Translations under genes and position numbers: made by a program
Notes under the pieces: generated by a model
What the model was told of the DNA's origin: nothing
What the model saw: the letters and a program-made list of their open reading frames with translations, nothing else
Database searches by the model: none
Shown: piece after piece, positions 7,201-26,860 of the stretch
Layout of the letters: the number at the start of each line of letters is the position of its first letter
Position numbering within the stretch: the first letter of the stretch is position 1
Assembly (NCBI GenBank): GCA_016869735.1
Contig: VGDL01000017.1
Location: forward strand, 1 to 58,522
Length of the DNA stretch: 58,522 bases
From: Alphaproteobacteria bacterium
Lineage (GTDB): Bacteria > Pseudomonadota > Alphaproteobacteria > Acetobacterales > Acetobacteraceae
Direction of reading: 5' to 3'

Positions 7201-7243
7201 GCCCCCTCTCGTCACACGCCAAGGTTGCGCCTGGGGAGGGGGC
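7201..7243 (+). promoter_or_regulatory. Hairpin in the metX 5' leader
   Basis: GCCCCCTC (7201-7208) and GAGGGGGC (7236-7243) form a perfect 8-bp GC stem around a 27-nt loop, ending 18 nt before the metX ATG. Leaders of methionine genes in alphaproteobacteria often carry SAM-sensing RNAs, but I could not match this one to the SAM-II or SAM/SAH consensus. It may instead be a simple attenuating stem or chance in GC-rich DNA. Confidence 0.3.
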
Positions 7244-7261
7244 CAGCGTAATAGTCCCTGC

Positions 7262-8416
7262 ATGAGCCAAGCCATTGCCCCGCTGCCCGATGTGGACCAT
7301 CAGGCCGCCCACTTCCCGGATGGGCTTGCGCTGGATTGCGGCGCGGTCGTGGCGCCCCTGACCGTCGCCTATCGGACCTTCGGCAAGCTGAACGCCAAGG
7401 CCTGCAATGCGGTGCTGATCTGCCACGCGCTGACGGGCGACCAATATGTCGCGGAAAATCACCCCATCACCGGCAAGCCTGGCTGGTGGGAGAATATCAT
7501 CGGCCCCGGCAAGCCGCTGGATACGGATCGCTATTTTCTTGTTTGCGCCAATGTGCTGGGCGGCTGCATGGGCACCACAGGGCCACGCAGCGAAATGACG
7601 GATGCGGCGGGGCGCGGGCTTGGCCGGCCCTGGGGGACGGATTTTCCCTCGGTCACCATTCGCGACATGGTGCGCGCGCAGAAGCGCCTGATGGAAAGCC
7701 TTGGCATCAACCGCTGGCTGGCCGTGATTGGCGGGTCCATGGGCGGGATGCAGGTGCTGGAATGGGCAGCAACCTACCCTGAGGCGGTCTATGCCGCGGC
7801 CCCCATCGCCACCGCGGCACATCATTCGGCACAAAACATCGCTTTCCATGAAGTCGGGCGCGCGGCCATTCATTCCGATCCTGATTGGCAGGGCGGGCGC
7901 TATTGGGAAGCGGGCATCATCCCGGCCAAGGGGCTTTCTGTTGCGCGCATGGTCGCGCACATCACCTATTTGTCGGAAAAGGCACTAACCCGGAAATTCG
8001 GCCGGCGGCTGCGCGGTGCCTCGGCACTCACCTTCCTGGAAGATGTGTTTGAGGTGGAGAGTTACCTCCGCCACCAGGGCTCCACCTTCGTGCGGCGCTT
8101 TGATGCCAATTCCTATCTCACCATCACGCGCGCTATGGATTTCTTTGACCTTGCCGCTGATCATGATGGCGATCTGGCCAAGGCGTTTCGCGGCACGGCA
8201 ACGCGGTTTTTTGTGGCGTCCTTCAATAGTGACTGGCTATTCCCCACCAGTGAAAGCCGCACCCTGGTGCGCGCATTGAATATGGCGGCTGCCAATGTCA
8301 GCTTTGTCGAGATTGACAGCGATAAGGGCCATGACGCCTTCCTGCTGGAAGAACCGGATTTCCATCGCGCGCTTGGCGGGTTCCTCGCCGGTTGTGCCGA
8401 ACGGCTTGGGGTGTAG
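7262..8416 (+). CDS. metX: Homoserine O-acetyltransferase
   Basis: Acetylates (or possibly succinylates) L-homoserine with acyl-CoA, the first committed step to methionine, in the cytosol. This is a 384-residue alpha/beta hydrolase. The nucleophile elbow G-G-S-M-G-G places the catalytic serine at residue 159. The C-terminal [10 protein letters not shown] supplies the Asp/His pair. L-T-G-D-Q-Y and [10 protein letters not shown] are family signatures. ATG 7262 is the obvious start. metW follows 3 bp later, the standard alpha/betaproteobacterial pair. Confidence 0.96.
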
Positions 8417-9101: not shown

Positions 9102-10061
9102 TTACTCCCGCCAGGGATGCTGATTCCACAGCGCCTGATAGCGCGTGCGTAGCCCAACAAGTTCCGCCCGATAGGCATCAGGCGCCAGGAAGCGCAGCGG
9201 CAGGAATTGCTGATCGGCAAGCTTCTGGAATTCTGGGTTCTCCACCGTCTTTTTCACGGATTCAGCCAAGCGCGTGATGATCTCAGCCGGCATGCCTCCG
9301 GGGGCAGCCATGCCGCGCATGGACCCCTCCACCACATTGAAGCCCAATTCGCGCAAGGTCGGGATGGTCGGCGCACGATCCCAGCGGGTTTCGCCCATTT
9401 GTGCCAGGGGATGCAACGTGCCCTGGCGCCAATCATTCAACCCTTCCGCCACATTCATCACCGCCAGCGGAATTGTGCGCGAAAACACATTCTGTTTCAC
9501 CAGTGACGATCCGGCAAAGGGAATATGCAGGAATTTCGTGCCGGAAGCACGTTCCAGCGCCAGCATCGCCAGATGATCGTCCGAACCAATCCCCGTGGTG
9601 CCATAGCCAATGGTGCCCGGATTGGCCCGCGCCGCCGCGAGCAGATCAGCAAGTGTCTTATACGGGCTGTCAGGCAGCACCCACATGCCGCCCGGATCAT
9701 CCACGATATTCCCGATCAGCGAAAAATCATCCAGCGAGAAACGCGCGCGCCTTTCGATCGGAATGGTGACGATGGTCGGCGTATTGATGAAGCCAATCGT
9801 ATAGCCATCGGGCCTGGCGCGCGCCAATTCAGTAAAGCCGATCTCCCCACCCGCGCCAGGGCGGTTCAGCACCACAACGGGCTGGCCCAGATCCGCTTCC
9901 ATGAAACGCGCAATGGTGCGCGCGGCGACATCCGTACCACCACCGGCGGCGAAGGCGACAATCATGGTGATCTGCCGATCTGGCCGCCAGCCAGCTTGCG
10001 CGCGCGCAATGGCAGGGGTGGCAATTGCGCTGGCGATCAAGGCGCGACGCGATATTTTCAT
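9102..10061 (-). CDS. Bug/TctC-family periplasmic solute-binding protein
   Basis: This is a 319-residue extracytoplasmic receptor of the tripartite tricarboxylate transporter class. The N-terminus has adjacent arginines followed by a short Ala-rich segment and A-R-A-Q, fitting a (Tat-like) signal peptide of ~22 residues. The mature protein has the family's I-V-A-F-A-A-G-G-G-T-D-V-A-A-R ligand loop and P-D-G-Y-T. No TctA/TctB membrane subunits are encoded nearby, as is usual for the large Bug families of Acetobacteraceae and Burkholderiales. The ligand is therefore unknown (dicarboxylates, tricarboxylates, aromatic acids or amino acids are possible). Confidence 0.9.
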   Translation of the reverse strand: MKISRRALIASAIATPAIARAQAGWRPDRQITMIVAFAAGGGTDVAARTIARFMEADLGQPVVVLNRPGAGGEIGFTELARARPDGYTIGFINTPTIVTIPIERRARFSLDDFSLIGNIVDDPGGMWVLPDSPYKTLADLLAAARANPGTIGYGTTGIGSDDHLAMLALERASGTKFLHIPFAGSSLVKQNVFSRTIPLAVMNVAEGLNDWRQGTLHPLAQMGETRWDRAPTIPTLRELGFNVVEGSMRGMAAPGGMPAEIITRLAESVKKTVENPEFQKLADQQFLPLRFLAPDAYRAELVGLRTRYQALWNQHPWRE

Positions 10062-12877: not shown

Positions 12878-14038
12878 ATGGCAGCACAACGATCCGCCCT
12901 TGTCCTTGGCGCCGGGATTATGGGGCTTTGCACCGCCTGGGCGCTGACCCGCGCCGGATGGCAAGTGCGCATCAATGAACAAGCGCCCATTCCCAATCCG
13001 CGCGGTGCATCCGTGGATCAACACCGCCTGATCCGCCACGCCTATGGCGCGCAGGCCGGCTATATGCGCATGGTTGATCCCGCCTATGCGGCCTGGGAAA
13101 TGATCTGGGCCGCCCTCGGCGCGCGGCATTACGTTGAAACCGGCGTGCTGGCTTTGGCCAATCATCAGTGTGGTTGGCTTGCCGAAAGCCGCGCCGCGCT
13201 GCTGGCGGATGGGCATGGCTGCGCCGATCTGCCACCGGGCCACATCACCGTGCTCTACCCAATGCTGTCCGATACCGGCATCGCGGCGGCCTTCACCTTG
13301 CCGCGTGGCGGGGTTTTGCTTGCGGAACGCATCGTCGCGGGGCTCGCCGCGCATCTCGCCGCGCAGGGGGTGGTGTTCGAAGCCGCCGAGGTCACCGCCG
13401 CGCTGCCGGCGCAAAAAACCCTGCGCCTTGCCAATGGCGCGGAACGCAGCGCCGATCTGCTGGTGCTGGCCGCCGGCCCCTGGGGGCCAAGGCTGCTCGG
13501 CACCACCCTTGCTGGCCGCGTGGTTCCGTCCCGGCAAATCCTGGTGCGGCTTGAAGCCCCGGCTGGCTTCCGCACCGCCTGGGAAGCCGCGCCCATGCTG
13601 CTTGATCTGGCCGAAGATGGCGGGTTTTACGCCGTGCCGCCGGTGGCGGGCACCGCGCTCAAAATCGGGGATCACCGGTTTTCGCGCCAGGGCGATGCCG
13701 GGGCTGATCCCCGCGCCGCAACGCCCTCAGAAATCGAGGAAATTCTGGCCCTGGCCCGCCCGCGCCTGATCAATGCGGAAGCCTATCGCGTACTCGGCGC
13801 GCAAGCCTGCTATTACGATGTGGAAGACCGGGAGGAATTCATCCTGGAAGCCGCCGCCCCCGGCTGCTTTGTCATGTCAGGCTTTTCCGGCCATGGCTTC
13901 AAATTCGCCCCGCTTTTGGGTCTGGCCCTGGCCGCGGCGGCGGAGGATAATGCGCTCGCCCGCGCCCTACCGGGATGGGCCGCCGGGCGCGATGCGCCCG
14001 CGCCTGGTTTGCTTGCTGCCTTGGAGTCCACGCCATGA
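12878..14038 (+). CDS. FAD-dependent amine/amino-acid oxidase (monomeric sarcosine oxidase-like)
   Basis: A 386-residue DAO-family flavoprotein. The N-terminal dinucleotide fold L-G-A-G-I-M-G-L-C is at residues ~10-18. Residues Q-A-C-Y-Y-D-V-E-D near 308 match the monomeric sarcosine oxidase segment that carries the covalent-FAD cysteine, and G-F-S-G-H-G-F-K-F-A-P near 345 is the matching C-terminal signature. It probably oxidises an N-methyl or secondary amino acid to an imine with O2. It overlaps the next gene by 4 bp (ATGA), so the two are coupled, but that neighbour does not pinpoint the substrate. Confidence 0.86.
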   Translation: MAAQRSALVLGAGIMGLCTAWALTRAGWQVRINEQAPIPNPRGASVDQHRLIRHAYGAQAGYMRMVDPAYAAWEMIWAALGARHYVETGVLALANHQCGWLAESRAALLADGHGCADLPPGHITVLYPMLSDTGIAAAFTLPRGGVLLAERIVAGLAAHLAAQGVVFEAAEVTAALPAQKTLRLANGAERSADLLVLAAGPWGPRLLGTTLAGRVVPSRQILVRLEAPAGFRTAWEAAPMLLDLAEDGGFYAVPPVAGTALKIGDHRFSRQGDAGADPRAATPSEIEEILALARPRLINAEAYRVLGAQACYYDVEDREEFILEAAAPGCFVMSGFSGHGFKFAPLLGLALAAAAEDNALARALPGWAAGRDAPAPGLLAALESTP

Positions 14039-15651
14039 CCACCACCGCCGCTGATGATCTGATTTTCGGCCTGACGCGCCTGGTTGACCTGCCGGGTCTG
14101 ACCAATTCCGCCGGCGCGCCTCTGTCAGCCGATGACATTGCGCAAATCGTGACTGAGGCAAACCGCTTCTGCACCGAAGCGCTGCAACCGAAAGCGCAGG
14201 AAGCGGATAAGCAGGGAGCCCGCTACGCCAATGGCACGGTGACGACGCCCGCGCATTACCCGGCACTTTATGACCAATGGCGCGAAGGCGGCTGGCAGCG
14301 GCTGGCAGCACCGGTGGAACATGGCGGGCAGGGCCTGCCGCTCAGCCTTTGGACCGCCATGGTGGAATTGGGCATGGCAGCCGATACCTCCTTCATGCTT
14401 GGCCCGCTGCTGACGGCCGGGGCGATTGATCTGCTGCGGCATCACGCCACGCCGGATCAGGCAGCGCGCTGGTTGCCGCCCATGATAGCGGGTGAATGGA
14501 CCGGCGCCATGTGCCTGACCGAACCGCAAGCCGGCAGTGATTTGGGCATGCTGCGCGCACGCGCGGAACCGCTCGGCAATGGGCGCTACGCGCTGCACGG
14601 CCAGAAGATTTTCATCACCTGGGGCGAACATGATTGCGCCGGCAATATCCTGCATCTGGTGCTGGCGCGCCTGCCGGATGCGCCGCCGGGCTCGCGCGGG
14701 ATTTCGCTGTTTGCAGCACCGAAAATCCTGCCCGACGGCGCGCGCAATGCCTTCCGCTGCGGTGGCATCGAACGGAAAATGGGCATCCATGGCAGCCCCA
14801 CTTGCATCATGCTGTATGAGGGTGCGGAGGCCGAATTGGTTGGCGAACCCAATCGCGGCCTGCAAGCCATGTTCGCCATGATGAATAACGCCAGGCTTGG
14901 CGTTGGCACCCAGGGTGTGGCGCATGGCGCGGCGGCGATCAGGCTCGCGGAAGCCTATGCCGCGCAGCGCGTGCAGGGCGGGCGCACCATCGCCGAACAC
15001 CCCGATGTGGCGCGCATGTTGATGGAAATGCGCGCCACCACCCTCGCTGCCCGGCTGATCATGCTGGAAGCGGCGGTGGCGGCAGACCGCGCGGAGCTGT
15101 TGGGCGATGCCGCGGCCGGCGCGCGGCTTGCAGTGCTGATCCCGGTGCTGAAGGCTTGGGCCACGGATCGGGGGGTGGAAACCGCCTCCCTCGGCGTTCA
15201 AGTGCATGGCGGCATGGGCTTCATCGAGGATACCGGCGCCGCCCAGGTGCTGCGCGATGCCCGCATCGCCCCGATTTATGAGGGCACCAACGGCATCCAG
15301 GCGATTGACCTGCTGACCCGCAAGCTCGCCCGCGATGGCGGGGCGGAGATGCGGGCCCTGATCGCGGAGATCGCGGCGCTCCCCGATGCCAGGCTGCGCG
15401 CGGCGGCCGAGGGGCTGGCCCGGACCACCGAAGCGATACTTTCCGAACAAGGCCGCGATGCAGAGGCTGGTCAAGCGCTGGCGACTGCCTATTTGGATGC
15501 GGTGGGCTGGGTCCTGGGGGGTGCTCTCCTCGCGCGGGCGGCTGCGGCGGATGGCGCGGCTTATGGGGCGGTGGCGGATTTCTATCTGCGGCGGCTTCTG
15601 CCGCGTGCTGGGGCGCGCTTCGCGGAAATTGAGGGGGCGATGGCGGCTTAG
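14035..15651 (+). CDS. Acyl-CoA dehydrogenase (long form with C-terminal extension, DmdC-like subfamily)
   Basis: FAD-dependent alpha,beta-dehydrogenation of an acyl-CoA thioester is predicted. The 538-residue length (classical ones are ~380) and the extra ~90-residue C-terminal helical domain match the subfamily that includes 3-methylmercaptopropionyl-CoA dehydrogenases. Visible signatures are C-L-T-E-P-Q-A-G-S-D, K-I-F-I-T-W-G, G-V-G-T-Q-G and Y-E-G-T-N-G-I-Q. The glutamate in the last of these is the predicted base. I use ATG 14035, which overlaps the previous stop; an earlier in-frame ATG lies inside that gene. The actual acyl chain is not predictable from sequence. Confidence 0.9.
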   Translation: MTTTAADDLIFGLTRLVDLPGLTNSAGAPLSADDIAQIVTEANRFCTEALQPKAQEADKQGARYANGTVTTPAHYPALYDQWREGGWQRLAAPVEHGGQGLPLSLWTAMVELGMAADTSFMLGPLLTAGAIDLLRHHATPDQAARWLPPMIAGEWTGAMCLTEPQAGSDLGMLRARAEPLGNGRYALHGQKIFITWGEHDCAGNILHLVLARLPDAPPGSRGISLFAAPKILPDGARNAFRCGGIERKMGIHGSPTCIMLYEGAEAELVGEPNRGLQAMFAMMNNARLGVGTQGVAHGAAAIRLAEAYAAQRVQGGRTIAEHPDVARMLMEMRATTLAARLIMLEAAVAADRAELLGDAAAGARLAVLIPVLKAWATDRGVETASLGVQVHGGMGFIEDTGAAQVLRDARIAPIYEGTNGIQAIDLLTRKLARDGGAEMRALIAEIAALPDARLRAAAEGLARTTEAILSEQGRDAEAGQALATAYLDAVGWVLGGALLARAAAADGAAYGAVADFYLRRLLPRAGARFAEIEGAMAA

Positions 15652-15734: not shown

Positions 15735-17369
15735 ATGAACGCATCACCGCCCTCCCTTTCGCAAACCCGCCCCCATGTCGCCGTAATCGGCGCCGGACCT
15801 GGGGGGCTGGCGGCTGCCATGCTGCTCGCTTCCTCCGGCGTGCGGGTGACCGTGTATGAAAAGGATGGCGTAGTTGGCGGGCGCACGCGCACCGTGACGG
15901 CGCCCGGCGGATATCGTTTCGATATCGGGCCGACCTTCTTTTTGTATCCGCGCATTCTGGCGGAAATCTTCGAAGCCTGCGGCGCACGGCTTGAGGATGA
16001 GGTGGATTTGATCCGCCTTGATCCGCAATATCGGTTGATCTTCGAAGGTGCCAATCCCGTCACGATAGATGCATCGCCCGACCTGGCGCGCATGGAAGCG
16101 GAAGTGGCGAAGATCAATCCCGCCGATGCGCCAGGCGTGCGCAGCTTCATGGCGGAAAACCGCGTGAAGCTGGAAGCCTTCCGCCCCGTGCTGGAACGGC
16201 CCTTTCATGGCGTGATGACCTATCTGGCGCCGGAAGTGATGAACGGCCTCCGGCATTTGCGGCCCTGGCTTTCGCTTGATCAGGAATTGCAAAGGCACTT
16301 CTCGGACCCGCGCACGCGCTTGGCGTTTTCCTTCCAGTCCAAATACCTCGGTATGAGCCCCTTCCGCTGCCCGAGCATGTTCTCCATCCTGTCCTTCCTG
16401 GAATATGAACATGGCGTGTTTCATCCGCGCGGCGGTTGCGGCATAATATCTGAAGCCATGGCGCGCGTTGCTGAAAGCGTGGGCGTGGATATCCGCCTGA
16501 ATACCAAGGTTGATCGCCTTGTTTTCGAAGGCCGCCGCGCTGTCGGTGTTGAAGTGGGCGGGCGGCTTCATGCGGCGGATGCGGTGGTGGTGAATGCGGA
16601 TTTCGCGCATGCCATCCCTGAGCTGATGGAAGAAGAACAGCGCCCGCAATGGCCCGATAAGAAAATCGCCGAGGCGCGGTATTCCTGTTCAACCTTCATG
16701 CTTTATCTGGGCATTGAAGGGCCGCTTGATCTGGCGCACCACACAGTGCTGCTCGCGGAAGATTACGAGAATAATCTGGCGCAGATTGAAGCCGGGATCA
16801 TTCCGCAAAATCCTTCGCTTTATGTTCAGGCAGCGGCGGGTACTGATCCTTCCATGGCGCCGCCTGGGCATTCCACGCTGTATATGCTGGTGCCCGTGCC
16901 AAATTTGTTGGGCGGTGCTGATTGGGCCGCTGAGGCACCACGCTATCGGCGCCTTGCGCTGGATCGGCTGAAGGCGCTTGGTCTGCATGATATTGAAAGC
17001 CGCATCCGGTATGAGAAAATCATCTCGCCGCAGGATTGGCAGGATGATTATGCCGTGGGCTATGGGGCCACCTTCAATCTTGCGCATAATGTGCGGCAGA
17101 TGATGCATTTCCGCCCGCGCAACCGCTTCGGCAGGGCAAAGGGTGTGTATCTGGTGGGCGGCGGCACGCATCCGGGTAGTGGCTTGCCGGTGATCTACGA
17201 AGGTGCGCGCATCAGCACCGATTTATTGTTGCAGGATCTGGGCCTCGCGCGGAGCGAGCGCAGCCCGCGCCATATGCGGGCTGATGTGTCCGTATCTGGA
17301 GCATTTTCAAGCCAGGCGGACTCACTTGGCGGCTCGGAAAATGCGACCAAACATTCTGCTGGCGACTGA
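15735..17369 (+). CDS. crtN: C30 carotenoid desaturase (CrtN-like, dehydrosqualene/squalene desaturase)
   Basis: This 544-residue CrtI/CrtN-family FAD enzyme has G-A-G-P-G-G at residues 19-24, G-G-R-T-R-T, and F-D-I-G-P-T-F-F in the flavin region. The family's C-terminal G-V-Y-L-V-G-G-G-T-H-P-G-S-G-L-P lies near residue 490. It should introduce conjugated double bases of unsaturation into a C30 chain at the membrane. HpnC/D/E in the same operon point to squalene as the substrate. The last ~23 residues are unusual: residues ~522-540 are translated from a dispersed palindromic repeat (17299-17353), giving a Ser/Asp-rich tail. First gene of the operon; the next starts 15 bp on behind GGAGAGG. 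Which of the two desaturases acts first is inferred from gene order. Confidence 0.85.
   Translation: MNASPPSLSQTRPHVAVIGAGPGGLAAAMLLASSGVRVTVYEKDGVVGGRTRTVTAPGGYRFDIGPTFFLYPRILAEIFEACGARLEDEVDLIRLDPQYRLIFEGANPVTIDASPDLARMEAEVAKINPADAPGVRSFMAENRVKLEAFRPVLERPFHGVMTYLAPEVMNGLRHLRPWLSLDQELQRHFSDPRTRLAFSFQSKYLGMSPFRCPSMFSILSFLEYEHGVFHPRGGCGIISEAMARVAESVGVDIRLNTKVDRLVFEGRRAVGVEVGGRLHAADAVVVNADFAHAIPELMEEEQRPQWPDKKIAEARYSCSTFMLYLGIEGPLDLAHHTVLLAEDYENNLAQIEAGIIPQNPSLYVQAAAGTDPSMAPPGHSTLYMLVPVPNLLGGADWAAEAPRYRRLALDRLKALGLHDIESRIRYEKIISPQDWQDDYAVGYGATFNLAHNVRQMMHFRPRNRFGRAKGVYLVGGGTHPGSGLPVIYEGARISTDLLLQDLGLARSERSPRHMRADVSVSGAFSSQADSLGGSENATKHSAGD
17299..17353. repeat. Dispersed palindromic repeat, copy 1 (inside the crtN 3' end)
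   Basis: These 55 bp match 26860-26914 at 49 of 55 positions by my alignment. The ends GCATTTTC and GAAAATGC are inverted repeats, continued inwards by AAGCC and GGCTC with one bulge, giving a ~12-bp imperfect stem. This copy lies within the crtN reading frame. GCRTTTTC...GAAAAYGC elements of this kind are familiar dispersed repeats in alphaproteobacterial genomes. Confidence 0.82.
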
Positions 17370-17384
17370 GAAGGAGAGGGCGCG

Positions 17385-18968
17385 ATGGGTGCCAAGGTAG
17401 TTGTCATCGGCAGCGGTTTGGGTGGGCTTGCAGCGGCCGCCACCGCGCAGGCGCGTGGGCATCAGGTCACGGTCCTTGAGCGTAATTCCTGGCTGGGCGG
17501 CAAAGCCGCGGTGCTGAACCTGCCATCGCCGGGTGGGCGCGGGAATTTCCGTTTCGATATGGGCCCCACCATCCTGACCGTGCCGCGCGTGTTGCGCCGT
17601 ATCTTTGCCGAGGCCGGGCGCAATCAGCAGCAGGAAATGCCGCTGATCCGCCTTGATCCGCAATGGCGCTGCTTCTTCGATGGCAGCAAGCAGATTGATC
17701 TGATCGAAAACGTCCAAGACATGGCGCGTGCCATGGATGCTTTCGCGCCTGGCGGGCCGAATGGCGCGGGGTATGAACGCTTCCAGCGCGTTGCTCGCCA
17801 TTTGCACAAGGTTTCCGAGAAATTCTTCTTCTGGAAGCCAGTAGAAGGCATTGGCGATACGCTGAACTTTGGCGATAACTTCAAGCCTGAGGTGCTGCGC
17901 GATGTCATGGCCTTGCGCATGGGCCAGACGGTGGCGAAAGTCATTCGCGGCCATGTGCCGAATGAACAATTGGCGCAGATGCTTGATCATTTCACGCAAT
18001 ATGTTGGATCAAGCCCTTACCTTGCGCCGGCGGTGCTTTGCAGCATTGGTGATATGCAGGCATCCGAAGGTATCTGGTATCCGGTGGGCGGCACGCGCGC
18101 CACGGCGGAAGGGCTTGCCAACCTCGCGGCCTCACTCGGCGCTGATCTTCGCACCAATGCCGAGGTGACGGATATTGAAATCGTCAACGGCGCGGTGCGT
18201 AGTGTCACCGCCAATGGCGAACGCATTGCCTGTGATGCGTTGATTTCCAACATGGATGCGATCCGCACCTATACGGAGTTGGTGAAGGGCAATGCGTCGC
18301 AGCGCTATGCGAAGAAGTATGAACCCGCCTGTTCTGGTGTGGTACTGTATCTTGGGCTCAAGCGCCGCTATGAGCATTTGGCGCATCATGATTTCGTCTT
18401 CTCCCGCGATGCGGAAGAAGAATTCGATGCGATTTATCGCAAGGGCGAACCGGCGCCGGACCCGACTGCCTATTTGGCGGCGCCATCGGGCACTGATCCT
18501 TCGGTAGCACCCGAAGGCGGCGAAGCACTTTATGTGCTGGTGCACACGCCTTACCTTCGCCCGCATCATGACTGGTCCAAGATGTTCCCGGCCTATCGCC
18601 AGAAGATCCTGGATAAGCTGAAGCGCACAGCGGGGCTGGAAGATATCGAAAGCCGGATTGTTTGCGAAAGCCAATTGACGCCGGTGGATATCCATAACCG
18701 CTACAAGGTTTTGAATGGCGCGATTTATGGCCTGGCATCGCATGGCTCCTTCACCGGCGCCTTCAAGCCAAGCAATCGCAGCAAGGCGATCAAGGGGCTC
18801 TATTTGGCCGGCGGTGCCGCGCATCCCGGCCCCGGCATGCCGATGGTGATGATGTCCGGCTGGATCGCTGCCGATGCGCTGGACCGTGATCATGGCGGGC
18901 GCGGCATGTCGCCTGAGGCGGAATTGGCCGGCCGGCGAGAGGCCGAATTGTCTGCCGCGGCGGAATGA
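17385..18968 (+). CDS. C30 carotenoid oxidase/desaturase (CrtP/CrtNb-like)
   Basis: A second CrtI-family flavoprotein, 527 aa. It has G-S-G-L-G-G at residues 9-14, F-D-M-G-P-T-I-L, and a C-terminal G-L-Y-L-A-G-G-A-A-H-P-G-P-G-M-P. In this superfamily the H-P-G-x-G-x-P segment is conserved between desaturases and the mixed-function oxidases (CrtP/CrtNb) that oxidise the terminal methyl group of C30 chains. The aldehyde dehydrogenase at the end of the operon makes a terminal-methyl oxidase the most economical reading. A second desaturase with a different step number is the alternative. It has a strong Shine-Dalgarno (GAAGGAGAGG) and overlaps the next gene by 4 bp. Confidence 0.8.
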   Translation: MGAKVVVIGSGLGGLAAAATAQARGHQVTVLERNSWLGGKAAVLNLPSPGGRGNFRFDMGPTILTVPRVLRRIFAEAGRNQQQEMPLIRLDPQWRCFFDGSKQIDLIENVQDMARAMDAFAPGGPNGAGYERFQRVARHLHKVSEKFFFWKPVEGIGDTLNFGDNFKPEVLRDVMALRMGQTVAKVIRGHVPNEQLAQMLDHFTQYVGSSPYLAPAVLCSIGDMQASEGIWYPVGGTRATAEGLANLAASLGADLRTNAEVTDIEIVNGAVRSVTANGERIACDALISNMDAIRTYTELVKGNASQRYAKKYEPACSGVVLYLGLKRRYEHLAHHDFVFSRDAEEEFDAIYRKGEPAPDPTAYLAAPSGTDPSVAPEGGEALYVLVHTPYLRPHHDWSKMFPAYRQKILDKLKRTAGLEDIESRIVCESQLTPVDIHNRYKVLNGAIYGLASHGSFTGAFKPSNRSKAIKGLYLAGGAAHPGPGMPMVMMSGWIAADALDRDHGGRGMSPEAELAGRREAELSAAAE

Positions 18969-19783
18969 CGAAGACGCAGGGACAACAAATGCCTGATCCG
19001 GTGGCGCTACGTTCGTCGCGCCATCTGGATTTTTTCGATTTCATGTTCACGCGTTTCTTTCAGAAGCACATGCGCGCGCTGCGCGTCGCACGCTGGGGCC
19101 TGCCTGAATTGCCGGAAGGCAAGCCTGTGGTGATCTTCGCCAATCATCCATCCTGGTGGGATGGTGTTGCCTTCATGCTGCTCTATCGCAGGCTTTTGCC
19201 GCATCGGCCGCTTTTTACGCCGATGGATGCGAAGGCCATTGAGAAATATCGCTTCATGACGCGGCTTGGCGTTTTCGGGATCGAAACCGGCTCCGCGCGC
19301 GGTTCGGTTGCCTTTTTGCGCGTGGTAGAAAAGGTGCTGGCCAATCCTCGGCATATTCTCTGGATCAATGCGCCAGGGCGTTTCAGTGACCCGCGCGAAA
19401 GGCCGGTACCGATTGCGCCTGGCATGATCCGCCTGCCGGAAATCGCCCCCAATGCGGTGTTTGTGCCGCTTGCTTTGGATTATCCGTTCTGGAGTGAGCG
19501 CAATGCGGAAATGCTCGCCGCTTTCGGCGCGCCCATCCCCGCTGCAACGCTGCTGGAAGCGCCGCGAGAGGCACGTAGCGCTATGCTGTCCGATGCCTTG
19601 GCAGGCGTGCTGGAAAAGCTCAGCGCCGATGCCATTGCGCGTGATCCCTCGGCCTTTCAAACCCTGGTGCAGGGGCGCGAAGGCATGGGCGGCATTTATC
19701 AAGCCTGGCGCCGCGCCAAGGCACTGCTGCGCGGTGAACGCTTCGACCCCCGACATGAACAACGCGCGGAGACAGCGCCATGA
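18965..19783 (+). CDS. Lysophospholipid-type acyltransferase (putative carotenoid acyltransferase, CrtO-like role)
   Basis: This 272-residue PlsC-superfamily acyltransferase carries the H-x4-D catalytic motif as N-H-P-S-W-W-D-G (H61, D66). It lacks the multiple membrane spans of staphylococcal CrtO and so is not a simple homologue of it. By context it should esterify a sugar or hydroxyl on the C30 carotenoid with a fatty acyl group, the last step of staphyloxanthin-type pathways. A role in general phospholipid synthesis is the alternative, made less likely by its position in the middle of the operon. It starts at ATG 18965 and overlaps the glycosyltransferase gene by 4 bp. Confidence 0.8.
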   Translation: MTKTQGQQMPDPVALRSSRHLDFFDFMFTRFFQKHMRALRVARWGLPELPEGKPVVIFANHPSWWDGVAFMLLYRRLLPHRPLFTPMDAKAIEKYRFMTRLGVFGIETGSARGSVAFLRVVEKVLANPRHILWINAPGRFSDPRERPVPIAPGMIRLPEIAPNAVFVPLALDYPFWSERNAEMLAAFGAPIPAATLLEAPREARSAMLSDALAGVLEKLSADAIARDPSAFQTLVQGREGMGGIYQAWRRAKALLRGERFDPRHEQRAETAP

Positions 19784-20883
19784 CAGATTTCCTGCCCTGG
19801 ATTGCGCTGGCCTTGGCGCTGTTTCCGATTGGCTTCGCGCTGGATAACCTCCGGCGCATGGCGAAGGCAGAAGGGCCAGCGCCCAAGGATGCGCTGGTGT
19901 CCATCCTGATCCCCGCCCGCAATGAGGAAGCGCATATCAGCGCCTGCCTGGATGCCGCACTCGCGCAACAGGGTGTCGCGATTGAAGTGCTGGTCATGGA
20001 TGATGGGTCGAAGGATCGCACGGCGCAGATTGTCAGCGCCTATGCGGCGCGGGATGCGCGGGTGCGCCTGCTGGTTTGCCCGCCCCTGCCGCAGGGTTGG
20101 ACCGGCAAGGTGCACGCCTGCGCACGCTTGGCGGAAGCAGCGCGAGGGTCGCATTTCCTGTTCATTGATGCCGATGTGCGCCTCGCACGTGATGCTGCAG
20201 CGCGCATGTCCGGCCATGCCGCGCGGCAGAATCTTGCCATGGTGACCGGCGTGCCGCGTCAGATTATCGGCACCTTGGGCGAAGCGCTGACTGTGCCCAT
20301 GATTAATCTGTTGCTGATCGGCTATCTGCCCGGCGGTGGGCGGGCAGAGACTGAACGCGCGGAGCTTGGCGCCGCTTGCGGGCAATTGATTCTGTTTGAA
20401 CGTGGCGCTTACGAATCCCTTGGCGGTCACGGGGCAATCCGCGGGTCGCTTCATGATGGATTGCAGCTTTCGCGTAAGCTGCGGGGGGCGGGCTTGCGCA
20501 CGGAAATGGTGGAAGGCGCAAAGCTTGCGGAATGCCGCATGTATGATGGGCTACGCGCAAGTTGGAATGGCTTCATCAAGAATGCGCATGAAGGCATGGC
20601 GACACCCATCGGCCTGCCGATTTGGACCACGCTTTTGGCGGGCGCGCATATCTGGCCTTTTTTTCTGTTGCCGGATTGGCAGGTAGCGCTGGCCATTCTG
20701 CTGGTCTTTGGCTTGCGCGCAGCCATCACCTTCAAAACCCGCGAAGCCTGGTGGACCGTGCCGCTGCATCCCTTGGCCGTGCTGGTTGGGCTCGCCATTC
20801 AATGGACCGCGCTGGTGCGCGTGCTGATCGGGCGCCCTGCCGGCTGGAAGGGCCGCGCCTATTCCGCCAGCGGCACGGCATGA
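19780..20883 (+). CDS. Family 2 glycosyltransferase (CrtQ-like)
   Basis: This 367-residue GT2 enzyme has a membrane anchor at residues ~5-22. Its catalytic GT-A domain shows S-I-L-I-P-A-R-N-E-E, M-D-D-G-S-K-D-R-T and the metal-binding D130-A-D132. Two or three C-terminal hydrophobic segments (about 280-345) follow, so it works at the inner membrane. The organisation matches CrtQ and HpnB-like glycosyltransferases. In this operon it most likely glycosylates a diapocarotenoid carboxylic acid or hydroxyl, although hopanoid or lipid glycosylation cannot be excluded. The gene ends with TGA overlapping the ATG of the synthase fusion. Confidence 0.82.
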   Translation: MTDFLPWIALALALFPIGFALDNLRRMAKAEGPAPKDALVSILIPARNEEAHISACLDAALAQQGVAIEVLVMDDGSKDRTAQIVSAYAARDARVRLLVCPPLPQGWTGKVHACARLAEAARGSHFLFIDADVRLARDAAARMSGHAARQNLAMVTGVPRQIIGTLGEALTVPMINLLLIGYLPGGGRAETERAELGAACGQLILFERGAYESLGGHGAIRGSLHDGLQLSRKLRGAGLRTEMVEGAKLAECRMYDGLRASWNGFIKNAHEGMATPIGLPIWTTLLAGAHIWPFFLLPDWQVALAILLVFGLRAAITFKTREAWWTVPLHPLAVLVGLAIQWTALVRVLIGRPAGWKGRAYSASGTA

Positions 20884-22568
20884 TTGCGGAAAGCGCTGCC
20901 TCCCGCGCGCCGACGCAAAGCGCTGCCTCCCGCACACCGACGCGTGACGCAGGGTCTGAGAATTTTCCAGTAGCGTCACGCCTGCTGGCGCCGGAGATGC
21001 GCCCCAAGGTCATGGGGTTTTATCGCTTTGTGCGCACCGCTGATGATATTGCCGATGACCCGTCACTGGACGCGCCGGAGAAGCTGCGCCGCCTGGCAAC
21101 GCTTGAAGCAGCGCTTGATGATCCCGCAACGGCGGAACCTGCCGCGACGGCCTTGCATAACGCTGGCAGCGGCACGGATGAAGCGCGGCTGATGCTCTCG
21201 GCCTTTCGCCAGGATGCAACGCAAACGCGCTACGCAGATTGGGCAGCGCTTGAAGATTACTGCGCGCGATCCGCCAATCCTGTCGGACGCATGTTGCTCC
21301 GCCTGCATGATGAGGCAAAGCCTGAGGCCATCACCGCGGCCGATGCGCTTTGCACTGCTTTGCAAATCCTCAATCATGTGCAGGATCTGGTGCCGGATCG
21401 GCGCGACATTGGGCGCGTCTATCTGCCCGAAACCTGGATGGGCTTGGCCGGCGGTGAGGTGCGCTTCTTCGATCCTGCCAATACTGAAGCACGGCGCGCG
21501 GTGCTGGATGCCGCGCTGGATCAGGTGGAAGAAAGGCTTGATGCCGCTGCGGCCCTGCCACGACTGATTTCGGCCAAGCGCCTGGCGCGTGAAAGTGCTG
21601 TCACCATCGCTCTTGCGCGCCGCTTGCTGGCACGGTTGCGCGCGGCGGATCCGGTGCTGGGGCGTGTTGCCCTATCGCGGCTTGATTTCTTGCATGGCTT
21701 TCGTGCCGCACTCGGCACGGGGCCAAGCGATGCGGCTTTGGTCAGTGCGCGGGTTGGGCGCGCGGGGTCCTCCTTTGCGCGTGGCATGTCGGCGCTGAAG
21801 GGCGAAAGGCGCCGCGCCCTTTGGGCAGTTTATGCCTTTTGCCGCGCGGTGGATGACATTGCCGATGGGGCGATGCCGGAAGCCGAAAAGCGCCGCTTCC
21901 TGGCTGATTGGCGCAGCAAGCTCCGCGCACCGAATTGCGCGCTGTCGCGTGAATTGGCGCAGGCGCGCAGCGCTTTCGCACTCCCCATTGAAGAATGCGA
22001 AGCGATGATCGCGGGGATGGAAACCGATGCCACGCCAAGGCTCCGCATCGCCGATACGGAAGCGCTGAACCTTTATTGCCGTCGCGTCGCCGGCAGTGTC
22101 GGCGCCATGGCGGTGCGGATTTTTCGTGCGCCTGAAGCGGCTGATTTCGGCCTCGCGCTTGGGCGCACACTGCAATTGGTGAATATCCTGCGCGATTTGG
22201 ATGAAGATGCAACGCGCGATCGCGTCTATCTTCCGCTTGATTTGCTGGCGGCGGAAGGTGTGGCTGATGCGCCCGCCGCAACGCTGATCGCAAGCCCAGG
22301 CTTCGCGCGTGCCGCGGCACATTTGGCACAGCAAGCCGAAGCCGGTTTCGCGCGGGCAGCGGCTGAACTACGCCACTTGGATCAGCGCGCCCTTCTGCCG
22401 GCCCGCATCATGATGTGGGGCTATCAGCGGCTGTTTGAACGGCTGATGGCGCGCGGCTTTGAGTTGCCTCGGCCACGTCCAAGTCTGACACGCGGCGAAA
22501 AGCTCGGCATGGCGGCCTATGCCATGGGGATCATGCCCGTGCCGCAAGCAAGCTCCAGCCGCGCGTGA
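20880..22568 (+). CDS. Fused squalene synthase HpnC-HpnD (hydroxysqualene synthase + presqualene diphosphate synthase)
   Basis: One uninterrupted 562-residue frame holds two complete squalene/phytoene-synthase domains. Residues ~25-285 are HpnC-like: S-E-N-F-P-V-A-S-R-L-L, F-V-R-T-A-D-D-I-A-D with D55/D59, S-A-N-P-V-G-R, and N-H-V-Q-D-L-V-P-D with D169/D173. Residues ~295-562 are HpnD-like: S-S-F-A-R-G-M, Y-A-F-C-R-A-V-D-D-I-A-D with D325/D329, R-V-A-G-S-V-G, and N-I-L-R-D-L-D-E-D with D439/D443. Both aspartate-rich metal-diphosphate sites are intact in each half. HpnD joins two farnesyl diphosphates to presqualene diphosphate and HpnC converts that to hydroxysqualene, so the fusion couples both steps. 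In most bacteria these are separate genes. ATG 20880 overlaps the previous stop; a longer frame lies within the glycosyltransferase gene. Confidence 0.9.
   Translation: MIAESAASRAPTQSAASRTPTRDAGSENFPVASRLLAPEMRPKVMGFYRFVRTADDIADDPSLDAPEKLRRLATLEAALDDPATAEPAATALHNAGSGTDEARLMLSAFRQDATQTRYADWAALEDYCARSANPVGRMLLRLHDEAKPEAITAADALCTALQILNHVQDLVPDRRDIGRVYLPETWMGLAGGEVRFFDPANTEARRAVLDAALDQVEERLDAAAALPRLISAKRLARESAVTIALARRLLARLRAADPVLGRVALSRLDFLHGFRAALGTGPSDAALVSARVGRAGSSFARGMSALKGERRRALWAVYAFCRAVDDIADGAMPEAEKRRFLADWRSKLRAPNCALSRELAQARSAFALPIEECEAMIAGMETDATPRLRIADTEALNLYCRRVAGSVGAMAVRIFRAPEAADFGLALGRTLQLVNILRDLDEDATRDRVYLPLDLLAAEGVADAPAATLIASPGFARAAAHLAQQAEAGFARAAAELRHLDQRALLPARIMMWGYQRLFERLMARGFELPRPRPSLTRGEKLGMAAYAMGIMPVPQASSSRA
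20890..20943 (+). repeat. 27-bp tandem duplication at the 5' end of the HpnC-HpnD gene
   Basis: 20890-20916 is repeated at 20917-20943 with two differences. Each unit keeps the reading frame and encodes the nine residues (E/Q)-S-A-A-S-R-(A/T)-P-T, forming a short linker-like N-terminal extension before the HpnC domain begins near residue 25. Confidence 0.85.
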
Positions 22569-23791
22569 ACAGCACCGCCACATGCCATGTCATTGGCGCA
22601 GGTGTCGCGGGCCTGGTGGCAGCGCTCAGGCTGGCGCAGCGTGGCCGGGCCGTGATGCTGCATGAAGCAACACCAGTGGCCGGCGGGCGCTGCCGCGCGC
22701 TGCCGGGTGGCACGGATAACGGCACGCACGCGCTGATGGGCGCCAATCGCGCTGCGCTGCGCTTCCTTGGCGATATCGGCGCGCGTGAGGGTTGGGTGGA
22801 AGCCGAACCGGAGGGGCTGCCTGTTTTCGATCTGGCTGATGGCAGCGCGCGGCGCATTGCGGCGAGCCCGCTTGATTGGCGCGATCCCGCCAAACGACCA
22901 CCAGGCTTGAATGCTTCTGCCTTTGCCACGCTGCTGCGCCTTGCTTTGCCCATTGGTGATCGGCCCGTCGCGGAAATGATGGCAGCGCATCCTGCGCTGT
23001 ATCGCGCATTGATCGAACCGCTCACGGTGGCAGCACTGAATACGCCGGGGCATGAGGCATCTTCCGCGCGGCTTGGCGTGGTGCTGCGTCGGCTTGGGCG
23101 GCCAGGGGCTGGCGCGGTGCTGGTGGCGCGCGAAGGGCTCGGGCCGGATTTGATTGCGCCTGCCTTGCGCGCGCTGGCGCATACGGGGGTCAGCATACGC
23201 ATCGGGGCGCGGTTGCGCGCCATGACAGAAGCAGAAGGGCGCATCATTGCGCTGCATTTCGGGGATGACAGTATCGCGCTTGAAGCGCGCGACCAGATCG
23301 TGCTGGCGCTGCCGCCCTGGGAAGTGGCGCGGTTGATCCCGAAGCTGCGCGTACCGGAACGCCATGCGCCGATTCTCAATCTGCATTTCGCGCACCAAGC
23401 GGCGGGGGCAGTGCGCTTCATCGGTGTGCTTGGTGGGCTGACGCAATGGGTCCTGGTGCGCCCAAGTGGTGTCAGTGTCACCGTGAGTGCCGCGGATGCG
23501 GAAGTCGAAGAACAGGCGCCGGATTTGGCACCGCGCGCCTGGGCGGAAATCCGCGCTGCGGCCAAGGCGTTTGGTTTGCCCGGCGATTGGCCCGAAGCAC
23601 CGCCGGCGATGCGCGCGGTGAAGGAACGCCGCGCCACGCCACGCCACGCGGTTGGCATGCCGCCGCAACCGCCGCGCCAAGTGCATCGCAATCTGGTACT
23701 GGCCGGTGATTGGACCTGGCCGCGCCTGCCCGCCACCATTGAAGCAGCGGTGCTGTCTGGTGAGGCCGCGGCGAAGGCTGTGCCGTCATGA
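22565..23791 (+). CDS. hpnE: Hydroxysqualene dehydroxylase (HpnE)
   Basis: A 408-residue FAD-dependent amine-oxidase-fold protein with I-G-A-G-V-A-G-L-V at residues ~10-18, G-G-R-C-R, and D-N-G-T-H-A-L-M-G, an HpnE hallmark. The C-terminus carries L-A-G-D-W-T-W-P-R-L-P-A-T-I-E-A-A-V, the usual flavin-closing segment. HpnE reduces hydroxysqualene to squalene, completing the pathway begun by the upstream fusion. It starts at GTG 22565, overlapping the fusion's stop (GTGA), and ends in an ATGA overlap with the next gene. Confidence 0.92.
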   Translation: MNSTATCHVIGAGVAGLVAALRLAQRGRAVMLHEATPVAGGRCRALPGGTDNGTHALMGANRAALRFLGDIGAREGWVEAEPEGLPVFDLADGSARRIAASPLDWRDPAKRPPGLNASAFATLLRLALPIGDRPVAEMMAAHPALYRALIEPLTVAALNTPGHEASSARLGVVLRRLGRPGAGAVLVAREGLGPDLIAPALRALAHTGVSIRIGARLRAMTEAEGRIIALHFGDDSIALEARDQIVLALPPWEVARLIPKLRVPERHAPILNLHFAHQAAGAVRFIGVLGGLTQWVLVRPSGVSVTVSAADAEVEEQAPDLAPRAWAEIRAAAKAFGLPGDWPEAPPAMRAVKERRATPRHAVGMPPQPPRQVHRNLVLAGDWTWPRLPATIEAAVLSGEAAAKAVPS

Positions 23792-25128
23792 CGCCCGCCG
23801 AAGCCCTTGCGGCCTTACGTGCTGCCGAAGCGCGGGATGGCGCGCCTGATCTCAAGCAACGCCGAGCGCTATTGGCGGCGCTGGCGCGCGCCGTGATGGC
23901 ACGCTCGCATGAGATCATGGCGGTGCTGGATGCCGAATATGAAGGCCGCGCGCCGATTGAAACCCTGCTTGCGGATGTGCTGCTGGTTGCGGATATGGCG
24001 CGCTATGTGCGGCGCAATTTGTGGCATTGGATGCGCCCGCGCCGCGTGAGTGTGCCCTATCCCTTCTGGCCGGCGCGCGCGCGGGAAGAATTCGCCCCCA
24101 AAGGCGTGGTCGGCATTATGGCGCCGTGGAATTACCCGGTGCAATTGGCGCTGCTACCCGCGATTGATGCCATTGCCGCCGGTAATCGCGTATGCGTGAA
24201 ACCATCGGAAGCTCTGCCGCGTACCTCCGCACTGATTGCCGAGATTCTGCGCGAAGCCTGTGGCGATGACATCGCGCTGTGTGTGCAAGGCGGCGCGGAA
24301 GTGGGCGCAGATTTCGCCGCCCAGCCCTGGGATCATCTGGTCTTCACCGGCAGTACTGCCACGGGGCGCAAGATTATGGCCGCCGCTGCGCCTAATCTTA
24401 CGCCACTCACGCTTGAACTCGGCGGCAAATGCACGGTGCTGATACTGCCGGGGGCGGACCTCAAACGCGCCGCACGCGATATTCTGGCGGGCAAGGCCTT
24501 CAATGCAGGACAGACCTGCGTCGCGCCGGATACTGTCCTGCTGGTTGGCCATAGCACACAGGCCTTCATTGATGCCTGCCACGCCACCGGCATTGGCCTG
24601 CCGGAGACTGGCGTCATCAACGCCCGCCAATATGCGCGGCTTCAGCGGCTTACAGGGGACGCGACCCTGACGCAGCTGGCAGAGGATGGTCCGGGGCGTC
24701 GCATGGCGCTGCGCCTTGCCGAAGCGCCGCCCGAAGCCGCGATCTGGCATGAGGAAATCTTCGGCCCGATACTACTTATGCGCGAAGAAAAATCCCTCGC
24801 AACAGCACTCGCCTGGGTTGCGGGGCGCCCCAGCCCCTTGGCCCTTTATGTGTTTGGCGCAACTTCCGAGGAAGAAAATCAGCTTGCAATTATAGCCAAA
24901 GGCAGCGCCATAATCGCCGGGCGCACGGTGGAATTCGCCGGATTTCAAGCTTTAGGCTTTGGCGGGTCTGGAGAATCAGGCTTTGGCCGGCGCAATGGCC
25001 TGGCCGGCTTTCTGGAGTTTTCCCACCGCCGCGCGCGTGTGCATCATGGGATATTTTCCCTGTCGCGCCTATTTGATCAACCTCGCGGAAAAGCTGTGGA
25101 AAGGTTAAAGAATTTACTATCCAAATAG
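23788..25128 (+). CDS. Aldehyde dehydrogenase, C30 carotenoid aldehyde type
   Basis: NAD(P)-dependent oxidation of an aldehyde to a carboxylic acid. The 446-residue length is in the ALDH3-like class. The catalytic cysteine is C244 in G-Q-T-C-V-A-P and the general base E210 lies in L-E-L-G-G-K. P-W-N-Y-P and G-S-T-A-T-G-R mark the cofactor site. As last gene of the carotenoid operon, its natural role is turning the terminal aldehyde made by the oxidase into a diapocarotenoic acid, which the glycosyltransferase could then glycosylate. A general fatty-aldehyde role is the alternative. It starts at ATG 23788 in a 4-bp overlap. Confidence 0.88.
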   Translation: MTPAEALAALRAAEARDGAPDLKQRRALLAALARAVMARSHEIMAVLDAEYEGRAPIETLLADVLLVADMARYVRRNLWHWMRPRRVSVPYPFWPARAREEFAPKGVVGIMAPWNYPVQLALLPAIDAIAAGNRVCVKPSEALPRTSALIAEILREACGDDIALCVQGGAEVGADFAAQPWDHLVFTGSTATGRKIMAAAAPNLTPLTLELGGKCTVLILPGADLKRAARDILAGKAFNAGQTCVAPDTVLLVGHSTQAFIDACHATGIGLPETGVINARQYARLQRLTGDATLTQLAEDGPGRRMALRLAEAPPEAAIWHEEIFGPILLMREEKSLATALAWVAGRPSPLALYVFGATSEEENQLAIIAKGSAIIAGRTVEFAGFQALGFGGSGESGFGRRNGLAGFLEFSHRRARVHHGIFSLSRLFDQPRGKAVERLKNLLSK

Positions 25129-25152: not shown

Positions 25153-25764
25153 ATGGTTGTTTTTCTCCCATCTGCTCCCGTAGCAGAAACGCCTCGCCTT
25201 CGGTTGCGCTGCGTCGAAGGTCGCGATGCCCCGGCCATTGCGGAGATGATGACCGAAGCGATCAGCAAGCGCCTCGCCTCCTGGCCCGTACCCTTCTCCC
25301 CCCCCATGGCGGAGGAGAAGATCAGCTCGGCCCGCGGCGCGGCGGCACAAAGCCGGTCACTGCCCCTGGTGCTGGAGGCTAAATCTGATGGCGCGATTTG
25401 CGGCTGGGTCAGCCTGGTCTGCCCACCGGGCGATGATAAGGTGGCGCTGACGACTTATTGGCTGGGCGAACAATACCAGGGCCAGGGCCTGATGCGCGAA
25501 GCAGGGCCGGTCGCCATGGAGCTCGGCTTCAAGCATATGGACATTGATTGCCTGCGCGCGGCTGTGCAGCCGGATAACGCCGCCTCACTGGCCGTGGTCC
25601 GCCTTTTGGGCTTCTGCCCCATGGGGGAAGGGCGCATCTGGTGTCCTGCCCGGGGTGTGGAAGAAACCTGTCTATGGTTTGAAAAGCCCCGACCTCTTGT
25701 GCCGGCCTGGGCGGCGGGCGCAGCACTCGGCAAGCGGGATTTGGTAAGGCACGTTTCAGCCTGA
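25153..25764 (+). CDS. GNAT N-acetyltransferase, RimJ/RimL-like
   Basis: A 203-residue acetyl-CoA-dependent acetyltransferase. It has an N-terminal T-P-R-L-R-L-R-C, Y-W-L-G-E-Q-Y-Q-G-Q-G-L-M-R-E-A (the acetyl-CoA pyrophosphate loop) and V-Q-P-D-N-A-A-S-L-A-V, all usual for RimJ/RimL-type enzymes. The substrate is unknown; ribosomal-protein N-termini, amino acids or small molecules are all used in this family. It begins 24 bp after the carotenoid operon on the same strand. That DNA is more AT-rich and might hold a promoter, so membership in the operon is uncertain. Confidence 0.8.
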   Translation: MVVFLPSAPVAETPRLRLRCVEGRDAPAIAEMMTEAISKRLASWPVPFSPPMAEEKISSARGAAAQSRSLPLVLEAKSDGAICGWVSLVCPPGDDKVALTTYWLGEQYQGQGLMREAGPVAMELGFKHMDIDCLRAAVQPDNAASLAVVRLLGFCPMGEGRIWCPARGVEETCLWFEKPRPLVPAWAAGAALGKRDLVRHVSA

Positions 25765-25876: not shown

Positions 25877-26860
25877 ATGAATGAATTGCCTTCACGGCGA
25901 CGGGTTATGCTGGGGGGCGTGGCCCTGGCCGGGGCCGCTGCTTCGGGTCGCGCTTTCGCACAAACCAATTGGCCGGAACGCCCAGTGCGGCTGGTTGTCG
26001 GCTTCACAGCCGGCAGCGCCACAGATGTGACCGGGCGCATTTTCGCGCAACGTTTCAGCGATGCCTGGGGTCAGCCCGTGGTGGTGGAAAATATAGCCGG
26101 TAATTCGGGTGCCATTGGCGTTGATCGTGTCGCGAAATCGGCGCCTGATGGCTATACGCTGATGTGGGCGGCGAGTGCGGCTCTCACTATCCTGCCCAGC
26201 CTGCAACGCCTGCCCTTTGACCCGCTCAAGGATCTGGCGCCAATCGGCATTGCCTTCGCCATGCCATCGCTCTTTGTTTCGAACCGCGACTTCCCGCCGC
26301 GCAGCATCCAGGAACTTGTCGCCTATGCGCGGGCCAATCCGGGCAAGGTGTCCTATGGCACGCCAGGCGTGGGCACGCCGCAGCACATTGCGGGTGAATT
26401 GTTCTGCCATCAGGCCGGCATCAAGATGGAACACATCCCCTATCGCGGGGCGAATATGGCGGATGTGCTGAATGGCAGCGTGCAGATCGGCATCCAGAAT
26501 ATCGGCGCCGTGCTGCCCATGGTGCGCAATGGGCAATTGCGCAGCCTGAGTATCACCACCCTGCAACGTTCGGCCAATGCACCCGAAATGCCGACCATGG
26601 TTGAGCAAGGCTTCCCGGATTTTGAGGCAAGTTCCTGGTTCGGCACCATGGCGCCAACCGGCACGCCGCAACCCATCCTGGACAAGGTGCATGCGACATC
26701 TCAAGCCATTCTGGCGGACCCGGCTATGCGTCAGCGGTTCAACGGGCTTGGGCTTGATATCATCGCCGGCAATGGTGAACAGATGCGCGCCACCATCGCG
26801 AGCAATATCGAAAGATGGGCGAAGGTGATCAGGGATTCAGGGATCAAGGTGCAAAGCTAG
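25877..26860 (+). CDS. Bug/TctC-family periplasmic solute-binding protein
   Basis: A 327-residue receptor with a signal peptide (R-R-R-V-M then A-G-A-A-A-S-G-R-A-F-A-Q). The mature start is L-V-V-G-F-T-A-G-S-A-T-D-V-T-G-R, then P-D-G-Y-T. The length and the glycine-rich loop after strand 1 fit the family. No permease genes accompany it. Its stop codon TAG (26858-26860) is the first base of a dispersed palindromic repeat, so the repeat is immediately adjacent to its 3' end. The ligand is unknown. Confidence 0.9.
   Translation: MNELPSRRRVMLGGVALAGAAASGRAFAQTNWPERPVRLVVGFTAGSATDVTGRIFAQRFSDAWGQPVVVENIAGNSGAIGVDRVAKSAPDGYTLMWAASAALTILPSLQRLPFDPLKDLAPIGIAFAMPSLFVSNRDFPPRSIQELVAYARANPGKVSYGTPGVGTPQHIAGELFCHQAGIKMEHIPYRGANMADVLNGSVQIGIQNIGAVLPMVRNGQLRSLSITTLQRSANAPEMPTMVEQGFPDFEASSWFGTMAPTGTPQPILDKVHATSQAILADPAMRQRFNGLGLDIIAGNGEQMRATIASNIERWAKVIRDSGIKVQS

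Follow-up and report, generated by a model that had tools for sequence, protein, structure and literature searches.

Gene content and proposed pathway

The window analysed here is a 58,522-nucleotide stretch of an alphaproteobacterial genome (contig VGDL01000017.1, assembly GCA_016869735.1), and at positions 15735-25128 it harbors a crt-hpn operon of seven genes, all on the plus strand, which appears to encode a C30 carotenoid pathway supplied with squalene. The operon begins with a crtN-like C30 (squalene/diapophytoene) desaturase gene (15735-17369; 544 aa) and a crtP-like terminal C30 oxidase gene (17385-18968; 527 aa), with 508 and 391 bits, respectively, to the crtI-family model TIGR02734 (cut-off 238 bits). 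These are followed by the genes of a putative carotenoid acyltransferase of the lysophospholipid acyltransferase type (18965-19783; 272 aa; PF01553; HX4D motif at residue 61), a putative carotenoid glycosyltransferase of family GT2 (19780-20883; 367 aa; PF00535; DAD motif), an HpnC-HpnD fusion for squalene synthesis (20880-22568; 562 aa; HpnC and HpnD models), the hydroxysqualene dehydroxylase HpnE (22565-23791; 408 aa; GTG start) and an aldehyde dehydrogenase, AldH (23788-25128; 446 aa; PF00171; ELGGK and GQTC motifs). A gap of 15 nt separates crtN from crtP, and the five remaining junctions are 4-bp overlaps, a layout that is consistent with a single transcript. An initial annotation of the window had listed these seven same-strand genes in this order, fusion included, with joins almost entirely by 4-bp overlaps, and both statements are borne out by the open reading frames (ORFs) and domain matches, the overlaps holding for five of six junctions.

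In the proposed pathway, HpnD would join two molecules of farnesyl diphosphate (FPP) into presqualene diphosphate, the fused HpnC would convert it into hydroxysqualene and HpnE would reduce the latter to squalene. CrtN would then desaturate squalene towards 4,4'-diapolycopene, CrtP would oxidise the terminal methyls of the desaturated C30 chain and AldH would yield the 4,4'-dioic acid, which the GT2 enzyme would esterify with glucose before the acyltransferase acylates that sugar. The reactions, the sequence in which the oxidations occur and the identities of the sugar and acyl chain are predicted here from homology. With a probability of roughly 0.88, we consider the operon to be a self-contained squalene-route C30 carotenoid pathway leading from FPP to a glucosylated, acylated C30 dioic acid, in line with the initial annotation, whose proposal of a squalene-route C30 operon that also covers dioic acid formation, glucosylation and acylation is supported by homology.

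HpnC-HpnD fusion and HpnE

Both halves of the fusion are matched in a single frame above the cut-offs of their models (HpnC 338 bits, cut-off 250; HpnD 318 bits, cut-off 279). The HpnC half (20946-21710) carries DDIAD at residue 55 and QDxxxD at residue 168, the HpnD half (21756-22517) carries DDIAD at residue 325 and RDLDED at residue 438, and in an alignment of 12 fusions the aspartates of both motifs were invariant in both halves. The most likely start is the ATG at 20880, which overlaps the stop of the GT2 gene, and not the mechanically called TTG at 20622. The AlphaFold prediction of the fusion protein reached a predicted local distance difference test (pLDDT) score of 88.4 and a predicted TM-score (pTM) of 0.83, and its best Foldseek matches were CrtM-like, dehydrosqualene synthase and HpnC structures. 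Furthermore, the operon HpnE, with TIGR03467 as its top family, is the sole near-full-length HpnE match in the whole genome.

Relatives were sought by a scan with the fusion protein, and the best 80 of 103 loci were kept, so that the counts that follow are conditional on the HpnCD query. One open frame spans both halves in 78 of the 80 (71 directly, and seven more once the match was shown to run past the terminal stop of the protein), the other two ending at contig ends. Since the corresponding match in Azospirillum brasilense Sp7 runs through a stop, tblastn alone is a poor test for fusion. Across the class, at least 12 of 387 genomes besides that of the window carry the fusion in a single frame, which in one case is interrupted by a contig end; genomes that matched the HpnC half alone were taken no further. 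In trees of each half, the fusions of Acetobacteraceae, of a Microvirga plasmid and of the family f13 form one group (98/99 and 97/96), and others fall outside it, e.g., f41 beside unfused Azospirillum proteins. Of the fused loci in f13, two are next to a crtP relative accompanied by a divergent aldH, and two are in the vicinity of the squalene-hopene cyclase gene shc. The fusion was also considered as a mark of the C30 pathway and rejected in that role: fused HpnC-HpnD is also encoded near shc (L132, L134 and L137), and the trees of the two halves need seven and six changes of the fused label, three in each being forced by well-supported branches.

Desaturase, oxidase and tailoring enzymes

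CrtN and CrtP of the window are 59 and 63% identical to CrtN and CrtP of A. brasilense Sp7, respectively. In a tree of 30 rows, among them 12 of CrtN, 12 of CrtP and those of CrtI and CrtD of the same genome, all 12 CrtN rows, those of the window and of Sp7 among them, form one group at 100/100, and CrtP of the window falls with that of Sp7 in a set of nine rows (97/95). The fork that holds all 12 CrtP rows has a support of 90/90 as drawn and of 100/100 without the six ungrouped rows, and neither CrtI nor CrtD of this genome is placed within the CrtN or the CrtP group.

Regarding the tailoring enzymes, the acyltransferase matches PF01553 at 26.6 bits (cut-off 23) and is 46% identical to the acyltransferase of the Sp7 crtNPOQ locus, and the GT2 protein is 51% identical to the Sp7 glycosyltransferase, with CruG and HpnB models matching below their cut-offs. 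The window has both genes expected for glucosyl and acyl tailoring of diapolycopenedioate, a GT2 glycosyltransferase and a lysophospholipid-type acyltransferase beside crtP. AldH (208 bits to Aldedh) shares 46% identity with the AldH encoded next to the Microvirga operon.

Carotenoid and squalene genes in the rest of the genome

The source genome (3.25 Mb, 131 contigs, 99% complete) belongs to a bacterium related to Roseomonas. Genome-wide, PF00494 had four matches, i.e., both halves of the fusion, a CrtB-like protein on contig C95 (383 bits to NF045921, under the cut-off of 500) and a 270-aa protein on contig C6, for which a DxxxD search was negative. Neither CrtM nor shc was found within the window, as the initial annotation had said; no CrtM-type dehydrosqualene synthase was present among the genome-wide PF00494 matches, and PF13243, searched genome-wide for the squalene-hopene cyclase at E<=0.001, had no match. 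The genome therefore combines HpnC, HpnD, HpnE and orthologs of the C30 enzymes CrtN and CrtP with no CrtM found, the combination expected of the squalene route.

The genome-wide search for crtB, crtM and shc that the initial annotation had proposed yielded, of these three, only the crtB-like gene, whose adjoining ORF is polyprenyl-synthase-like by eye only. Contig C7 encodes CrtI (620 bits), CrtD (694 bits, above its cut-off) and CrtC, whose 296 bits fall short of the model's cut-off of 400, so that crtB and crtI lie outside the operon. Since crtB is separate and accompanied by crtI, crtD and crtC, C40 carotenoids are expected too, made with desaturases of their own. A separate crtB or crtM supplying the desaturases had been named as what would refute a self-contained squalene-route C30 operon; crtB does exist, CrtM was not found and the C40 set has its own desaturases. 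As a side observation, a cytochrome P450, an ATP-grasp protein and an unnamed ORF sit between crtC and crtD/crtI on C7.

Gene order among relatives

The comparison of gene order across Acetobacteraceae, likewise suggested at the outset, covered the 63 related loci whose flanks extend at least 5.5 kb upstream and at least 3.5 kb downstream, and the complete seven-gene order was present in 51 of them, at about 54-98% protein identity and more often than by chance. Among the remaining 12, five are without aldH only, two without hpnE only and five without the crt block. The relatives are named as Acetobacteraceae genera or as uncultured Acetobacteraceae, Rhodospirillales or Alphaproteobacteria, and they include Roseococcus thiosulfatophilus RB-3, which has all seven genes in the same order. 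Three loci titled as Asaia bogorensis metagenome-assembled genomes (MAGs; L024, L031 and L046) hold the operon or parts of it, with HpnCD 91-93% identical; their HpnCD resembles that of MAGs titled Roseomonas, and the species name looks doubtful.

The placement of shc and hpnE was followed in 14 chosen relatives, nine of which have shc. RB-3 has a single HpnE and a single, distant shc, and its operon module must therefore supply both pathways, should both products be formed. In another relative (G105), the crt block and aldH stand without hpn genes, and an unfused hpnC-hpnD-hpnE set lies about 4 kb from shc, and in three genomes (G003, G005 and G007) crt genes and hpnCD are on different contigs.

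Squalene consumers across Acetobacteraceae

A survey of 249 genomes of the family (E thresholds: HpnC 1e-55, shc 1e-20, CrtP ortholog 1e-120, CrtB 1e-60) found HpnC in 233, shc in 220, a CrtP ortholog in 90 and CrtB in 73. Where shc was the sole consumer gene, HpnC was present in 146 of 148 genomes; it was present in 69 of 72 that have shc and crtP, in 16 of 18 that have crtP alone and in two of 11 that have neither, i.e., in 231 of the 238 genomes with shc or crtP vs. two of 11. Six of these 11 have crtB and five of the six are without HpnC; therefore, HpnC does not follow the C40 pathway. CrtP identity in the 90 crtP-bearing genomes ranges from 58 to 100%, and not all of them need hold the seven-gene operon.

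In the genus of the window, which includes Neoroseomonas nitratireducens (its crtP coordinates match), shc was not found in any of the seven sampled genomes (E<=1e-20) and crtP was present in all; therefore, the idea of the initial annotation that squalene is dedicated to pigment fits there. It does not hold in general, since 72 of the 90 crtP-bearing genomes also carry shc. Across the family, 29 of the 249 genomes, which are species genomes and not all type strains, had no shc match at E<=1e-20, a result that bears on the statement in PMC8776678 that all Acetobacteraceae type strains carry hopanoid synthesis genes; the same source describes one or more hopanoid genes as typically missing in the acidophilic group.

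A tentative scenario, to which we give less than even odds, is that in several Acetobacteraceae lineages squalene once shared with hopanoids was captured by the pigment, shc being lost and hpnCDE retained for the carotenoid operon. The acylglucosyl C30 carotenoid may then partly replace hopanoids in membrane ordering, and the fusion may channel presqualene diphosphate between active sites. The natural gains and losses among relatives offer a test set for carotenoids standing in for hopanoids.

Alternative explanations and opposing evidence

Several points weigh against a self-contained squalene-route C30 operon. The association of HpnC with the two consumers speaks for such an operon (Fisher test, 6.8e-11 overall; 2.5e-4 within the genomes that lack shc), but it was calculated with kinship ignored, the shc-less sets being 18 crtP-bearing genomes from six genera and 11 without crtP from seven, with one genus in both. 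HpnC absence was scored at the single threshold of 1e-55, at which weak matches may be missed, and two genomes with neither shc nor crtP still carry HpnC. Moreover, Neoroseomonas lacus (G004; L045 and L148) keeps hpnCD-hpnE, apparently as an orphan squalene module, with no crtP found at E<=1e-60 and no shc at E<=1e-10. In the operon itself, HpnE stays under the cut-off of its family model (238 bits vs. 283) and AldH is only 32% identical to that of Sp7. PMC10448405 reports that deleting two AldH candidates in Methylobacterium extorquens AM1 had no effect. Lastly, a separate C40 set stands beside the C30 operon in the same genome.

This last point underlies the alternative that survives best, although it is still very improbable, namely that the substrate of CrtN and CrtP is C40 phytoene or lycopene from the CrtB-like protein of C95 and that hpnCDE serves something else. 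Enzymes of the crtI family can indeed be promiscuous. Nevertheless, the genome has its own CrtI and has CrtD near crtC, the CrtN and CrtP of the window group with the A. brasilense C30 enzymes apart from these two, and 50 of the 90 crtP-bearing genomes of the family show no crtB at E<=1e-60, a threshold at which other crtB types may be missed.

A slightly less probable reading is that saturated squalene is bypassed, with CrtN taking hydroxysqualene or another intermediate and HpnE being marginal. It draws on Pseudoroseomonas coralli (L098) and Roseomonas sp. E05 (L101), whose operons are without hpnE between hpnCD and aldH; yet each of these genomes carries its one hpnE beside shc, and an A. 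brasilense crtNPOQ deletion accumulates squalene, as PMC13274349 reports. Least probable of all is that hpnCDE is a hopanoid module merely sitting beside carotenoid genes, as might be argued from the Caldovatus module, which stays with shc and without crtP, and from the seven of 14 tested relatives, RB-3 included, with one operon-type hpnE (once in two pieces) and shc elsewhere, since shc was not found in this genome or the six other sampled genomes of the genus and the hpn genes are joined by 4-bp overlaps inside the carotenoid operon.

Upstream region and neighbouring genes

Control of the operon by PpsR/CrtJ was considered and, while it may exist, is not supported. The sequence TGT-N12-ACA, which we take to be the PpsR/CrtJ motif, is present in the crtN upstream region, with three sites in the window vs. 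3.57 expected and none in the C40 locus (L015) vs. 0.88 expected. It occurs in 15 of 65 related upstream regions vs. 1.3 expected from a mononucleotide shuffle, but 10 of the 15 come from near-copies of the window (CrtN 95-97% identical), four other near-copies being without it, and the other five differ in sequence and mostly in site position. Promoter and terminator scans gave no excess (two promoters vs. 3.3 expected; 12 terminators vs. 11.6), and an upstream alignment held no shared block beyond near relatives.

Directly upstream of crtN lies an acyl-CoA dehydrogenase gene (13975-15651), kept in 55 of the 63 related loci; it travels with the crt block in G003 (L145) and stays beside hpnCD in L045 and L096. 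A GNAT acetyltransferase gene (25153-25764), 24 bp past aldH and present in 25 of the 63 loci, may be on the operon transcript.

Elsewhere in the window, a 1514-aa DUF4011/helicase/REase_MTES_1575/DUF3320 protein (51642-56183, minus strand) scores 1472 bits against PDC-S37, a candidate defence family of PADLOC. A 549-aa protein (6314-7960, minus strand) has a chorismate mutase type II domain at residues 289-367 as its only Pfam match, and its gene adjoins aminotransferase and prephenate dehydrogenase genes. Three genes for TctC-type solute receptors are also present (9105-10061, 25877-26857 and 35639-36604).

Comparison with known systems

The squalene route itself is already known, and the less usual part is the one-operon layout with the fusion and the loss of shc. 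The initial view of this layout as unusual holds only in part: it is the norm in the set of loci retrieved with the fusion protein, and it recurs on the Microvirga plasmid. From a practical standpoint, the operon is one portable unit that should allow acylglucosyl C30 carotenoid acids to be produced from FPP.

The C30 carotenedioate that has been reported from Roseococcus also gains a genetic basis in this operon. According to a review (PMC12654162), R. thiosulfatophilus has a C30 carotenedioate and its diglucosyl ester, credited with light transfer; the sources that it cites for these pigments are papers of 1993 and 1994 with strain RB3 in their titles, and one such title describes most polar carotenoids of RB3 as unbound to bacteriochlorophyll complexes. 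We found no literature link of Roseomonas or Roseococcus to an hpn-crt operon, and an earlier description may nonetheless exist.

Among the systems compared, A. brasilense Sp7 has crtN-crtP-acyltransferase-glycosyltransferase orthologs in identical order and a squalene supply by hpnCDE, and deletion of hpnCDE or of crtNPOQ there is reported to abolish carotenoids (PMC13274349). Unlike in the window, the Sp7 genes form two loci (PMC13274349), which we located on replicons p3 and p1, with hpnC and hpnD as separate frames, a divergent aldH and a DUF2141 gene after the glycosyltransferase gene. A DUF2141 gene adjoins crtN-crtP-acyltransferase-glycosyltransferase in Azospirillum, Gluconobacter and Palleronia (L149, L152 and L174), Palleronia adding a sulfotransferase. 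On Limimaricola and Palleronia plasmids, hpnC, hpnD and hpnE are separate and divergent from the crtN-crtP-acyltransferase-glycosyltransferase genes, and a Gluconobacter plasmid, predicted to be conjugative, has the latter four followed by DUF2141 and aldH, with no hpn genes nearby.

In M. extorquens AM1, as described in PMC10448405, a glycosyltransferase and a lysophospholipid acyltransferase adjoining crtP glucosylate and acylate diapolycopenedioic acid, so that the product is an acylglucosyl diapolycopenedioate; unlike in the window, the C30 genes are scattered, hpnCDE is clustered with shc and, in that account, the aldehyde dehydrogenase was not found. The plasmid operon of Microvirga ossetica (L151) has crtN, crtP, acyltransferase, glycosyltransferase, fused hpnCD and hpnE in the same order on one strand, and its fusion groups with that of the window in trees of both halves; it differs in its plasmid location, a methyltransferase gene between crtN and crtP, a terminal ispH and a divergent aldH.

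In Planctopirus limnophila, squalene from HpnCDE likewise serves as the C30 carotenoid precursor (Santana-Molina 2022, as cited in PMC10448405). Finally, the logic of CrtN, CrtP, AldH, glycosyltransferase and acyltransferase is that of the staphyloxanthin pathway of Staphylococcus aureus, as outlined in PMC10448405, which begins with CrtM and dehydrosqualene, whereas the operon of the window has HpnCDE.

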